Notes under the pieces: model-generated
Seen by the model: only the letters and a program-made list of their open reading frames with translations
Told to the model about the DNA's origin: nothing
Database searches by the model: none
Program-made: the position numbers and the translations under genes
NCBI RefSeq assembly: GCF_001509585.1
Contig: NZ_LNCI01000004.1
Location: 310,001 to 374,000, forward strand
DNA length: 64,000 nt
Reading direction: 5' to 3'
Source: Tropicimonas marinistellae
GTDB taxonomy: Bacteria; Pseudomonadota; Alphaproteobacteria; Rhodobacterales; Rhodobacteraceae
Shown: positions 13,596 to 55,557 of the stretch, piece by piece
Layout: each line of letters starts with the position of its first letter
Numbering within the stretch: position 1 is the stretch's first letter

Positions 13596-14300
13596 ATGAA
13601 GCTCGAGCACCGTGCCTATTCGGTTCACCTGTTGACGGCGACCGGTGCTGTGCTGGCGATGCTCGCGCTGCTGGCGGCGGTGAACTACGACTGGCCGATG
13701 ATGTTCCTCTGGCTCGTCGTCGCCTTCGCGGTGGACGGGATCGACGGGCCGCTGGCCCGGCGCTACGACGTCCAGAGCAACGCGCCGCGCGTCGACGGTG
13801 AGCTGCTTGACCTGATCATCGACTACCTGACCTATGTGTTCATCCCCGCCTTCGCGCTTTTCGCGTCCGGGATTCTGCCCGGATGGACGGGTTGGGCGGC
13901 ACTTATCGTGATCACCTTCGCCACCGCGCTCTATTTCGCGGACACGCGCATGAAGACCTCGGACAAGTCGTTTTCCGGCTTTCCGGGATGCTGGAACATG
14001 GTCGTCCTCGTGATTTTCGCGGTTCAGCCGCCGGTCTGGGCGGTCCTGCCGGCGATCCTGCTGCTCGCGGCGGCGATGTTCTCCGGCATTCGGTTCATTC
14101 ACCCGGTGCGCACCCGCCGGTGGCGGGCCGTCTCGGTGCCCATGGTGCTGATGTGGACGATCTGCGGCGCCTGGGCCGCCTGGGTGGCCTTCGATCCGCA
14201 GAGCTGGGCCAAGATCGGCCTGCTGGTCTCCAGCGCCTACCTGCTCCTCGCCGGCGCCGCGCAGCAGATCCTGCCCGACGAGCGCCTGCGCGACGCCTGA
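13596..14300 (+). CDS. pcs: Phosphatidylcholine synthase
   Basis: Pcs condenses CDP-diacylglycerol directly with choline to give phosphatidylcholine in the inner membrane. The 234-residue product has about eight hydrophobic segments. It carries the CDP-alcohol phosphatidyltransferase signature in the form DGIDGPLARR followed by DGELLDLIIDYLTY, including the spaced aspartates that bind metal. The N-terminus MKLEHRAYSVHLLTATG matches the family opening. It is convergent with gcvP. The 187 bases upstream (13409-13595) must hold its promoter, which I cannot place. Confidence 0.9.
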   Translation: MKLEHRAYSVHLLTATGAVLAMLALLAAVNYDWPMMFLWLVVAFAVDGIDGPLARRYDVQSNAPRVDGELLDLIIDYLTYVFIPAFALFASGILPGWTGWAALIVITFATALYFADTRMKTSDKSFSGFPGCWNMVVLVIFAVQPPVWAVLPAILLLAAAMFSGIRFIHPVRTRRWRAVSVPMVLMWTICGAWAAWVAFDPQSWAKIGLLVSSAYLLLAGAAQQILPDERLRDA

Positions 14301-45777: not shown

Positions 45778-46782
45778 TCAGTTGATAGCGTCAATGGCGA
45801 TTTGTCCCGCTCGGAGCGCTGCGGCACCTTCGGGGTGGTTGGATGGAAAAAGCTCGGCCCGGTCCGGAAAGAAGAGCCTTCTCACTTCTTCGTTGCTGGG
45901 CGCGAGCCTGTTCCGGACATCGGCAACTCGTTCCGGCGTCACCTCCAGCGGTGCACCGTCAGCGCCCCATTGCTCTGCCGCCTGGCAAAGCGCCGCTCTC
46001 AGCGACTGAAGCGCCTCATCCAACGTCTCGTCGGAGGCAATGTGCCGGTTGATCAGAAGGAACGCGTCCAGCGATTTCCTGGTCAGCGACGGATTGCGGA
46101 ATTGTGGGCGAACGAGCCCGTCCGAGGGCGTCCCGAGGATCTCGCAGTAGTCCTCGACCAGATCGCCGCCCGCCAGCGCATCCCGCTCCAGAATCCGAAC
46201 GACCAGGCGATCCTTGCCAACGGTTTTGATCCATTGGCGCAGGTTTCGCATGTGGTCGCCGTGCCCGCGCTGCAGGAAGTTCTCGGCAAATTCGTCAAAG
46301 GTCTTGTCCACGCCGCGGCGGACAGCCTCGGAATAGGCGCTCGGCAGGAGGTCTTCCTGCCGGCGGAGATAGACAATGTATGTTACCTCATCGAAGTTCC
46401 GGCCCAACATCTCATCAAACGCGGCGATCCGCTCCGCGTCGAAGACGTATGGCCAGACATGTTCGCTTGACGCAATCCAGGTGTGGATGTTCGGACCCGC
46501 GTTTGCGAGCCCCGCCTCGAAACGGCGCATCATCGTGTCGGAATAGCGTCTGGCCGCCTTCAGGTCATCGATACCGACAACCCGGCGAACGAACGGATCG
46601 GGCGGCAGATGCCCCAGACTGGCCAGTGCCGCGATCGGAAATTCCCACTGACTGGAGATTTCCTCCACGATCCGATCGTAGAGATATCCGCGTTCTGCCA
46701 GGACTTGCCGATTTTCCGCCAACAGTATCTGCAGCGTGGTGGAGCCCGTTTTCGGCCGTCCGATATGGAACATCGCCCTCAT
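45778..46782 (-). CDS. Sulfotransferase-like protein 1, between sucC and sucD
   Basis: The 334-residue product opens with the PAPS-loop motif FHIGRPKTGSTTLQ and has YIVYLRRQEDLLPSAYSEA, the likely 3'-phosphate region. ILERDALAGGDLVEDYCEIL is shared almost word for word with its upstream neighbour, so the two are paralogues from a tandem duplication. The acceptor is unknown; such enzymes may sulfate surface polysaccharides. Its ATG overlaps the upstream stop by ATGA, and 12 bases separate it from sucD. Confidence 0.72.
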   Translation of the reverse strand: MRAMFHIGRPKTGSTTLQILLAENRQVLAERGYLYDRIVEEISSQWEFPIAALASLGHLPPDPFVRRVVGIDDLKAARRYSDTMMRRFEAGLANAGPNIHTWIASSEHVWPYVFDAERIAAFDEMLGRNFDEVTYIVYLRRQEDLLPSAYSEAVRRGVDKTFDEFAENFLQRGHGDHMRNLRQWIKTVGKDRLVVRILERDALAGGDLVEDYCEILGTPSDGLVRPQFRNPSLTRKSLDAFLLINRHIASDETLDEALQSLRAALCQAAEQWGADGAPLEVTPERVADVRNRLAPSNEEVRRLFFPDRAELFPSNHPEGAAALRAGQIAIDAIN

Positions 46783-47930
46783 TGCAGCACCTGTTCGCGG
46801 CGGCGATGCGTTGATCCATTTTCACCGGAATTCTGGACCGCACGGGCTTTTCCCGAGACGGAACCCGCAGGAGCGACGCCAAAGCCATCGAGATCCCCAA
46901 ACGCAAGTTGCAGAGCGATGTCGGCCATGTCCTGCGTCGCGTCGGTGCCCCCTTCGGACTTGGAGCAACTGGCAGCGGACGTGGGGGGGAACAATGCATC
47001 GCGCTCAGGAAAGAAGGCGGCGCGCAGCTTCTCGTTGCTTTGCGCGTTCGCGCGCCGGATTTGATCGACCTGCGCGGCGGACAACGCCAACCGGCGATCC
47101 GAAACCGCGCTGTTCATGAGGGTTTTCTCGACCTCTCGCAGACGCTTTTCGACATCCGGGCGCCGGCGTATTCCGCGTTCCTTCAGGCATATGTTTGCCC
47201 GGCGAAGGAACTCCGCCACCCCAACGCTGAGCGCCTCGTTTGCGCGCGGCGGAACGGGCAGGCCCGACGGATCGATGCCGATTGCCTGCGCGAAATCAGC
47301 GACGAGATCGCCGCCCGCAAGCGCATCCGGTTCGAGCAACCGCAGACTGAAACGATCGCGCCCAACACCGTTGACCCAGGTTTGCGCGAGTTCGAAGTAA
47401 TCCCAACCGGAGGCGTTCCGAAGAAACCCGTCGAGGGTCTGGGTCGATCCCTGTCGCAGAACCTGTGAGTACCGGCTGAGCAACCGATCTTCCTGGCGCC
47501 GGATGTAGCAAAGGTACCGGATGTCGGAAAAGAACTGCCCCATCCAGTCGTCGAGCGCGCGCACGAGTTCCGGCGTTCGCGAGAGAGTCCCCAGGTCTTC
47601 GCAGGAGAAGACCCAGGTCGCATCGGGATGGGCGCCCACAGCCTCGCGAAACGTCTCGGTGTAGGCCGCCGCGACCGATGCCTGCGCCCGCAGGTCCGTC
47701 AGGCCGAACACCTTGCGAGTCTGTCCGTGCTCTTTTGGAAAAAGGCGGCCGGCACGATCCATCTGGCAGATTGCGATCTCCACCTGTGCGCGCCGCCACG
47801 TCTTACCCGGATAATGAATGCGGTCGTAGGCCGCGCCGCGCTCCGGCAGTCGGCTGGCATTCCTCTGGAGCCACCCCTGAATCGAGGTGGTTCCAGTCTT
47901 TGGAAGGCCGATATGTACGACTGCGCGCAT
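46779..47930 (-). CDS. Sulfotransferase-like protein 2, between sucC and sucD
   Basis: A 383-residue paralogue of the next gene: VHIGLPKTGTTSIQGWL at the N-terminus, then YIRRQEDRLLSRYSQV and LLEPDALAGGDLVADF. It has a poorly conserved C-terminal tail of about 60 residues (GVAPAGSVSGKARAVQN) that its neighbour lacks. It begins 63 bases after the sucC stop and is translationally coupled to the downstream paralogue by ATGA. No adjacent glycan-synthesis gene is seen, so the acceptor cannot be guessed from context. Confidence 0.72.
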   Translation of the reverse strand: MRAVVHIGLPKTGTTSIQGWLQRNASRLPERGAAYDRIHYPGKTWRRAQVEIAICQMDRAGRLFPKEHGQTRKVFGLTDLRAQASVAAAYTETFREAVGAHPDATWVFSCEDLGTLSRTPELVRALDDWMGQFFSDIRYLCYIRRQEDRLLSRYSQVLRQGSTQTLDGFLRNASGWDYFELAQTWVNGVGRDRFSLRLLEPDALAGGDLVADFAQAIGIDPSGLPVPPRANEALSVGVAEFLRRANICLKERGIRRRPDVEKRLREVEKTLMNSAVSDRRLALSAAQVDQIRRANAQSNEKLRAAFFPERDALFPPTSAASCSKSEGGTDATQDMADIALQLAFGDLDGFGVAPAGSVSGKARAVQNSGENGSTHRRREQVLQ

Positions 47931-47993: not shown

Positions 47994-49196
47994 TTACTGA
48001 GCCGCCGATTTCACAGCTGCAACGATCTTCTCGGCCCCGTCCTTGAGGTTGTCCGCAGCGATCACGTTCAGGCCGGACGTATTGATGATCTCCTTGCCCT
48101 TCTCGACATTGGTGCCTTCGAGGCGCACCACGAGCGGCACTTCGAGTCCGACCTCTTTCACGGCGGTCACGACGCCCTCGGCAATCACGTCGCAGCGCAT
48201 GATGCCGCCGAAGATGTTCACAAGGATGCCCTTCACGTTCGGATCCGACGTGATGATCTTGAAGGCTTCCGTGACCTTTTCGGTGGTCGCCCCGCCGCCC
48301 ACGTCGAGGAAGTTCGCCGGTTCCGAGCCATAGAGCTTGATGATGTCCATCGTCGCCATCGCCAGGCCCGCGCCGTTCACCATGCAGCCGATCTCGCCAT
48401 CGAGGGCGATATAGTTCAGGTCGAACTTGGAGGCTTCGAGTTCCTTCGGGTCCTCCTCCGTCTCGTCGCGCAGGGCGGCGATGTCCGGGTGGCGGTAGAT
48501 TGCGTTGCCGTCAAACCCCATCTTGGCGTCGAGCGCCTTGAGATCGCCCTTGTCGGTGACGATCAGCGGGTTGATCTCCAGCATCTCCATGTCCTTGTCG
48601 GTGAAGAGCTTGTAGAGGGTCCCCATCAGCGCCACGCATTGCTTTACCTGCGGCCCTTCGAGACCGAGCATGAAGGCAATGCGGCGACCGTGGAACGGCT
48701 GGTAGCCGGTTGCCGGATCGACGGAGAAGGACAGGATCTTCTCCGGCGTCGATTCCGCAACTTCCTCGATGTCCATGCCGCCTTCGGTGGAGGCAACGAA
48801 AGACACGCGCGACGTGGCGCGATCGACCAGCAGGGCCAGGTAGAGTTCGCGGTCGATGCCCGAGCCGTCCTCGATGTAGATCCGGTTGACCTGCTTGCCG
48901 GCATCGCCGGTCTGCTTCGTCACCAGCGTGCGCCCGAGCATCTTCTTGGCTTCGTCGGCGGCTTCCTCGACCGACTTGGCAAGGCGAACCCCGCCCTTTT
49001 CACCGGCATCGGCCTCCTTGAAGGAGCCCTTGCCGCGACCACCGGCATGGATCTGAGCCTTGACGACCCAAAGCGGACCGTCGAGTTCTCCGGCTGCCGT
49101 CTTGGCCTCTTCGGCCTTCAGGACGACGCGGCCATCACTGACCGGGGCGCCATAGTCGCGAAGCAGAGCTTTCGCCTGGTATTCATGGATGTTCAT
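47994..49196 (-). CDS. sucC: Succinyl-CoA synthetase beta subunit
   Basis: SucC is the ATP-grasp subunit that binds nucleotide and succinate. The 400-residue product begins [19 protein letters not shown]. It has [35 protein letters not shown], and [16 protein letters not shown] in the C-terminal ligase domain, all signatures. The ribosome site (GGGA) is modest. About 106 bases upstream is the paired GTGATCAC operator also seen before sdhC, so this is the head of the suc transcript. Confidence 0.96.
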
Positions 49197-49301: not shown

Positions 49302-49337
49302 TTTGTGATCACAGGGGAAATAAGCGTGATCACAAAT
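49302..49337 (-). promoter_or_regulatory. Paired GTGATCAC operator upstream of sucC
   Basis: Two 11-base arms, TTTGTGATCAC (49302-49312) and GTGATCACAAA (49326-49336), form a large inverted repeat with a 13-base spacer. Each arm also contains the self-complementary octamer GTGATCAC; the two octamer centres are 21 bp apart, two helical turns. The same arms occur before sdhC. This suggests a dimer bound at each octamer with cooperative contact. I cannot name the regulator. Confidence 0.7.
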
Positions 49338-54993: not shown

Positions 54994-55028
54994 TTTGTGA
55001 TCACACTTCATTGGCCGTGATCACAAAT
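54994..55028 (+). promoter_or_regulatory. Paired GTGATCAC operator upstream of sdhC
   Basis: The arms TTTGTGATCAC (54994-55004) and GTGATCACAAA (55017-55027) are identical to those before sucC. The spacer is 12 bases and octamer centres are 20 bp apart. The element ends about 134 bases before sdhC. The shared design is strong evidence for one regulator of both operons. Confidence 0.7.
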
Positions 55029-55161
55029 CCCGACTTTGACCCGTATTGCGCCAATTAACCGCGCCGATTCGGTCCGCATACACGTGACACCGCCCACGAA
55101 TGTATTAGAGAACAGGGCAAAGGCGGGCCCTGCCCCGCGCTATCAAAGGGAGCCAGATCTC

Positions 55162-55557
55162 ATGGCAGACGTGAACCGGGGGAACCGCCCCCTGTCGCCC
55201 CACCTCCAGATCTACAAGCCGCACATCCTCATGGTCAGCTCGATCCTGATCCGGATTACCGGCAATGGGATGACGGTCGGAATCCTCCTCGTCCTGTGGT
55301 GGCTACTGGCTGCCGCGGCCGGTCCGGAAGCCTACGAAGCGAATATTGCTTGGCTCACGAAATGGTGGCTGGCGAAGCTGGTCTGGTTCGGTCTGATCTG
55401 GGCTCTGTGGTATCACATGCTGGGCGGTATCCGGCACATCATCTGGGACGAGGCCGTTGGCCTGGAACTGGAGACAGCCGAGAAACTCGGCTGGTTTCTC
55501 GTAATCGGATCCGTCGTCGGCGCAGTGCTGACCTCGATCGTCCTGCTTATCGTCTGA
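55162..55557 (+). CDS. sdhC: Succinate dehydrogenase cytochrome b556 subunit
   Basis: SdhC anchors the complex in the membrane and provides heme and quinone ligands. The 131-residue product has RPLSPHLQIYKPHILMVSSILIR-type sequence, the quinone-site Ser and Arg region, and WYHMLGGIRHIIWD with the axial histidine. There are three membrane helices. GGGAG precedes ATG 55162; the longer upstream open frame covers the leader and is not coding. It is the first gene of sdhCDA-X-B. Confidence 0.94.
   Translation: MADVNRGNRPLSPHLQIYKPHILMVSSILIRITGNGMTVGILLVLWWLLAAAAGPEAYEANIAWLTKWWLAKLVWFGLIWALWYHMLGGIRHIIWDEAVGLELETAEKLGWFLVIGSVVGAVLTSIVLLIV

Follow-up and report, generated by a model that had tools for sequence, protein, structure and literature searches.

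Doubled palindromic operators upstream of sucC and sdhC in Rhodobacteraceae, most likely bound by the GntR-type regulator AkgR

In the window, that is, the whole stretch of 64,000 nucleotides of Tropicimonas marinistellae DNA analysed here, the first genes of the suc and sdh operons are each preceded by a doubled palindrome (Table 1). Each operator has two 11-base arms, TTTGTGATCAC and GTGATCACAAA, and each arm contains the octamer GTGATCAC. The arms read at both places exactly as the first-pass annotation had claimed, and the gaps that it gave between octamer centres, 21 bp for sucC and 20 bp for sdhC, match the coordinates. Its extents of 49302-49337 and 54994-55028 start correctly but are one base too long, as the arms stop at 49336 and 55027. 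The window contains five exact copies of the octamer, namely the four operator copies and one at 13908 within an open frame. Thus, by this exact-copy count none precedes mdh, lpdA or mcl2 in the window, as had also been noted.

Table 1. Features of the sucC and sdhC upstream regions, in window positions
Feature	Position	Strand	Remarks
sucC, succinyl-CoA synthetase beta subunit, suc operon gene 1	47994..49196	-	open frame; ATP-grasp_2 + Ligase_CoA
sucC operator, sucC-proximal arm TTTGTGATCAC	49302..49312		octamer 49305-49312, ends 108 bp before sucC start codon
sucC operator, sucC-distal arm GTGATCACAAA	49326..49336		octamer 49326-49333; octamer spacer 13 bp
sdhC operator, sdhC-distal arm TTTGTGATCAC	54994..55004		octamer 54997-55004
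sdhC operator, sdhC-proximal arm GTGATCACAAA	55017..55027		octamer 55017-55024, spacer 12 bp, ends 137 bp before sdhC start codon
putative sdhC -35, GTGACA	55084..55089	+	59 bp past second octamer end; consensus match, function inferred
putative sdhC -10, TAGAGA	55106..55111	+	16 bp past -35; consensus match, function inferred
sdhC, sdh operon gene 1	55162..55557	+	open frame; Sdh_cyt

Between sucD and sucC lie two look-alike frames on the minus strand, 45778-46782 (334 aa) and 46779-47930 (383 aa). They appear sulfotransferase-like by eye, and neither has a Pfam match at E ≤ 0.001. Among relatives, sucC and sucD adjoin in some and are also separated in others.

The exact pair occurs only twice in the 5.4-Mb genome, before sucC and sdhC, both inside the window. 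Under a third-order Markov model of the window, octamer pairs with a spacer of 12-13 bp are expected by chance 6e-5 times per window and 0.005 times per genome. When the genome was scanned in a relaxed manner (at most 2 mismatches, spacer 13 only), two extra weak matches appeared, with 2 mismatches each and without flanking TTT/AAA arms.

Both doubled palindromes are genuine and kept across most of Rhodobacteraceae. The exact pair with a spacer of 12-13 bp is present in 357 of 394 Rhodobacteraceae genomes (356 of 393 genera), mostly in two copies each, and the reversed-pattern control gave 0 among the rows listed for these genomes. In a sample of 385 alphaproteobacterial genomes the pair is found in 7, which are all 5 Rhodobacteraceae and 2 of the 380 others, a background level. 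The first-pass annotation had named a random spread of the motif, or the absence of the arms in relatives, as observations that would speak against its reading. The spread is not random, the pair being present in 357 of 394 Rhodobacteraceae but in 2 of 380 other genomes of the class, and relatives retain it in front of both sucC and sdhC. The conserved pair and the non-random matches support its idea of a single regulator of the succinyl-CoA and succinate steps.

Named contigs were also scanned with any spacer from 6 to 16 bp, which gave matches in at least 119 stretches, with 133 pairs among the matches listed. Of these, 35 precede sucC and 28 precede sdhC. Every one of these 63 pairs has a spacer of 12 bp (5) or 13 bp (58), though 6-16 bp was allowed. 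The other 70 listed pairs, not assigned to sucC or sdhC, have spacers scattered over 6-16 bp. In view of such differently spaced pairs, the operators could in principle reflect chance or a non-regulatory conservation, for example of a structural upstream element. However, the 0.005 pairs expected per genome compare with mostly two in the operator-bearing genomes, and the spacer of the sucC and sdhC pairs is confined to two values out of the range permitted, so that we consider this explanation close to negligible.

Among all fetched loci, 148 pairs yielded 118 distinct upstream regions, 66 of sucC and 52 of sdhC, the remainder being 24 pairs given to no gene (at least 3 of them near a locus end) and 6 repeats. 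The median distance from pair to start codon is 110 bp in the sucC regions and 131 bp in the sdhC regions. In the operator logo, aaTTTGTGATCACA-N11-TGTGATCACAAA, the outer A/T arms are strongly conserved, and the inner flanks keep only one A or T.

Extra pairs were inspected in ten genomes with 3 or 4 pairs, with L258 (G276), G310 and G340 outside the classification. Triple octamers at 21-bp steps, all before sucC, were observed at L245 (G285), L250 (G135) and L262 (G191). Additional third pairs stand before a fumC-like gene (L243, G042), a thiolase gene (L244, G296) and a Vut_1 transporter gene (L251), in one genome each. Those at the fumC-like and thiolase genes may represent regulon expansion in G042 and G296. 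The extra pairs of L247 and L254, each located within a coding frame, were regarded as chance occurrences.

The doubled palindromes are most likely binding sites of the GntR-type regulator AkgR, which we take to be RSP_0981 of Rhodobacter sphaeroides. The genome of T. marinistellae has 36 GntR-domain matches, of which 30 were fetched and compared, and none of the 36 falls in the window. Five small Rhodobacteraceae genomes with two operators have two core GntR groups in common with it, L132 and L145. The regulator copy of the T. marinistellae genome (G000:C1, locus L145) is on a contig that differs from the window's. The exact octamer recurs shortly upstream of the L145-group gene in 26 of 40 distinct loci, this copy included, and in 22 of the 26 it ends 8-10 nt before the regulator start codon. 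The 40 loci are a selected, non-random set (6 first finds, 30 best scorers and 8 picked for closeness, less 4 repeats). The 14 loci without the exact octamer include all three with the R. sphaeroides-like gene order (L282-L284) and are counted against AkgR; in two of the 14, L200 and L222, an octamer with one mismatch precedes the regulator.

Both a GntR HTH (PF00392) and an FCD domain (PF07729) were found at E ≤ 0.001 in 6 of 6 L145-group members, and the T. marinistellae protein scores above both curated cut-offs. The recognition segment SMTP[AV]RE is invariant but for the A/V position in 37 sequences. Six helices are predicted in the effector domain (mean pLDDT 85), at residues 87-104, 110-133, 136-152, 157-181, 188-199 and 202-221. 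According to the available text of PMC7797058, six effector-domain helices define the VanR group of the FCD subfamily and seven the FadR group, so the L145-group protein fits the VanR group as defined there. A structure search with the predicted model gave McbR as the best PDB match, with the VanR-type Atu1419 and AlkR also among the matches.

The regulator and the operator are distributed together. Of the 357 operator-bearing genomes, 348 encode an orthologue-grade regulator, as do 12 of the 37 that lack the operator (Fisher p 3e-23, odds ratio 80, over 394 genomes with kinship ignored). The orthologue cut-off of E ≤ 1e-60 was chosen post hoc, accepted proteins having 3e-69 or better and others 2e-56 or worse. 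When 318 genomes from across the class were sampled, the orthologue-grade regulator appeared only in 4 Rhodobacteraceae members; 3 further genomes reach 1e-48 to 1e-50, the level of the family's second copy, and the remaining genomes of the sample have nothing at E ≤ 1e-45. Completeness reaches 90% or more in 27 of the 37 operator-less genomes, and 7 of those 27 still have the regulator, which counts against AkgR. A degenerate extended pair (at most 3 mismatches of 22, spacer 13) was matched in three of the 37, all with the regulator. It stands before sucC in G040 and G291, two of the seven; the two such pairs in G155 are both within coding frames and were taken as chance. In the search with up to 3 mismatches, the other five of the seven (G061, G155, G201, G281 and G338) showed neither an exact nor a near-exact pair ahead of sucC or sdhC, and in these the regulator or the operator may have changed.

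Gene order connects the L145 group with RSP_0981. In 8 of 8 regions, all picked for coordinate closeness, sucC and the regulator share a stretch of 15-20 kb; sdhC, too, is inside the fetched stretch in 7 of them, L279 stopping before sdhC. In five of these regions (L277-L281) the regulator, together with a YgjP-like gene, flanks the cluster on the sucA side. In the other three (L282-L284, L282 being taken as Fertoeibacter niger), a YgjP-like gene and the regulator follow 0.8-2.0 kb past sdhB. The octamer precedes the regulator in 4 of the five and in 0 of the three. Because the arrangement past sdhB fits the numbering of RSP_0981 shortly after sdh (RSP_0974-6), we provisionally equate the L145 group with RSP_0981. 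In other genomes, the window's own included, the regulator gene is elsewhere. The first-pass annotation had been unable to assign the operator to a known regulator, the only one of its points that does not stand; a GntR/FCD candidate can now be offered, by gene order AkgR (RSP_0981), whose predicted targets are the same operons (available text of PMC4344238).

A different protein, for example one of CRP/FNR type or of the core GntR group L132, might bind the operator and leave the AkgR group a bystander, which we consider quite improbable. TGTGA and TCACA in the operator do resemble the half-sites of the CRP consensus. The CRP/FNR operator is TGTGA-N6-TCACA, however, and here the half-sites abut, TGTGATCAC(A), with no 6-bp gap, so that the CRP/FNR spacing is not reproduced. 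L132 is likewise core in the small genomes, and a small test (36 genomes, E ≤ 1e-30) shows a tendency for it to be absent from genomes that lack the operator. The group was detected in 5 of 5 operator-bearing genomes, in 9 of 25 with neither operator nor regulator, and in 3 of 6 that have the regulator alone. Since L132 also thins out in operator-less lineages, the correlation between regulator and operator is partly a matter of shared ancestry. Yet where checked the L132 gene is far from the operators (on another contig in G307, 1.8 Mb away in G373), and the octamer is found in 0 of 6 L132 loci versus 26 of the 40 selected AkgR-group loci. L132 was set aside, although the small test shows no clear difference in its distribution. 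AkgR is further favored over another regulator in that its group and the operator have the same family boundary, and that one of the two out-of-family pairs sits 32 bp before a GntR/FCD frame.

That out-of-family pair (L266) belongs to G539, from a different family of the class. The frame behind it is 26% identical to AkgR and adjoins a divergent frame that is outer-membrane-receptor-like by eye. Perhaps a related operator rule holds in this distant relative.

The position of the operator relative to the promoter was examined for sdhC. Of 52 sdhC upstream regions, 43 have GTGAC, as in the putative -35 element of the window, somewhere between the pair and the start codon; shuffling predicts 6.5. 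In 22 of the 43, TAnnn[TA] follows 22 bp after the G of GTGAC, which is promoter-like (GTGACA-N16-TA). The distance from pair to GTGAC is 57-60 bp in 32 of the 43 regions, 48 or 50 bp in 2, 68-69 bp in 4 and 78-80 bp in 5, and its standard deviation of 7.6 bp is smaller than the 18.9 bp of the distance from GTGAC to the start codon. If transcription starts about 35 bp after the -35 element, the octamer centres would be near -98 and -118.

A family-wide pattern search, in which only 52-82 bp was allowed, found GTGAC past the pair in 264 of 394 genomes. The 150 rows listed take any gene behind the pair, a few genomes being represented by two rows; 127 of them have a distance of 57-60 bp, 10 one of 69-71 bp, 7 one of 77-80 bp and 6 some other distance. 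When the distance is at least 64 bp, 15 of 20 rows are within 2 bp of one or two added 10.5-bp turns, against 42% expected. Equal phasing was reached in 14 of 20,000 uniform draws, in a test that ignores kinship and cannot separate 10, 10.5 and 11 bp. This near-fixed distance between pair and promoter-like element, with a minority shifted by about one or two helical turns, fits activation from one face of the DNA.

The main rival explanation is that the same GntR protein acts as a repressor, with a TCA metabolite releasing it, a mode of action shared by many FCD GntR proteins. Its structural relatives include repressors (Atu1419, available text of PMC7797058), and the lone octamer just ahead of the regulator's own start codon has a repressor-like placement. 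On the other side, the sdhC pair ends ~59 bp upstream of the putative -35 element rather than on the promoter, and its distance is constant or shifted by about whole turns. The paper that gave AkgR its name (mBio 2015) reportedly has it activating TCA genes, which also disfavors repression at sucC and sdhC, and we regard the latter as rather unlikely.

For the sucC set, no clear -35/-10 emerged downstream of the pair from a scan with weights modelled on the sigma-70 consensus, and the scan peak at -36 is the operator's own TTG. A C[CG]TTT box precedes sucC in 39 of 66 regions, and 34 of its 45 occurrences are 43-45 bp from the pair. It was dropped as a sucC part of the window, whose sequence has no box at that position. 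In relatives, a CAAAAAACCG-like block is observed downstream of both operators, about one helical turn farther out at sucC than at sdhC. It may be another regulator's site.

Taking these together, we conceive, with good confidence, that dimers of AkgR, as a VanR-group GntR/FCD protein, activate sucC and sdhC from the paired TGTGATCACA sites and limit their own supply. Each 10-bp palindrome would take one AkgR dimer, by analogy with Atu1419. At both promoters, sucC and sdhC, two neighbouring dimers would then occupy the upstream DNA, separated by about two helical turns, and could jointly contact RNA polymerase from one DNA face for activation. AkgR probably limits its own level via the single site at its own start codon, since a single octamer there would suit autorepression. 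A fuller proposal is tentative, and we would give it somewhat less than an even chance. It describes a phase-locked activating double operator of a VanR-type FCD GntR protein, in which dimers on one face tolerate displacement chiefly by whole turns (~59, 69-70 or 78-80 bp to the -35 element), three sites sometimes stand before sucC, a single site sets the regulator's own level, and the two-operon regulon is near-unchanged over some 350 genera.

The regulator and its predicted regulon are already known for R. sphaeroides; what is added here is the family-wide doubled operator and its promoter phasing. In the literature searched, whose scope left aside figures, supplementary tables and the AkgR paper, we found no account of the doubled operator, the spacing rule, the promoter phasing or the autoregulatory octamer. 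When the octamer was used as a literature text query, the matches listed were unrelated by title. For this large family, whose members are mostly marine and phototrophic, the operator thereby acquires a candidate regulator with a name and a site definition exact enough for searches, and control of this part of the TCA cycle can be read off the sequences of several hundred genera. Since the operator is shifted by about one or two turns at some promoters, helical phasing by a GntR activator can be studied there as a natural experiment. Flux engineering in Rhodobacter and Paracoccus can also profit from a core TCA regulon that is so small and constant.

Among known systems, AkgR of R. sphaeroides is the closest. 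In the available text of PMC4344238, the GntR regulator RSP_0981 is predicted to control sucCD, the 2-oxoglutarate (alpha-ketoglutarate) dehydrogenase genes and sdh, and its predicted targets, succinyl-CoA synthetase, succinate dehydrogenase and alpha-ketoglutarate dehydrogenase, are thus the same enzyme complexes as here. The L145-group gene past sdhB in three genomes matches the RSP numbering. Unlike that arrangement, the window's genome has no regulator gene in the cluster, and the doubled operator, the 20/21-bp spacing, the promoter phasing and the autoregulatory site are absent from the available text of PMC4344238.

Atu1419 of Agrobacterium fabrum, a VanR-group FCD GntR repressor, shares the GntR HTH and the six-helix FCD domain and is a structural match. 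One Atu1419 dimer binds one 10-bp palindrome, ATGTATACAT (available text of PMC7797058), to which TGTGATCACA would correspond here. However, Atu1419 is a tetrameric repressor with paired sites 109 or 190 bp apart and a DNA loop for the 190-bp pair (same text), whereas the sites here are 20-21 bp apart and upstream of a putative promoter.

McbR/YncC of Escherichia coli is the closest solved structure by sequence and fold, although just 24-26% identical in the structural alignment. Its targets are not known to include TCA genes.

CceR (RSP_1663), of the LacI family, resembles AkgR as a predicted regulator of sdh and mdh in R. sphaeroides, but its motif, [A/G/T]GTT N6-8 AAC[A/C/T], is unlike the TGTGATCACA palindrome (available text of PMC4344238). 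Neither GTT nor AAC occurs in either paired element of 35 or 34 bases. According to the available text of PMC11323563, succinate dehydrogenase and 2-oxoglutarate dehydrogenase belong to the CceR regulon in R. sphaeroides but not in Paracoccus denitrificans, for which other control is suggested. AkgR is a candidate for this non-CceR control in Paracoccus denitrificans.
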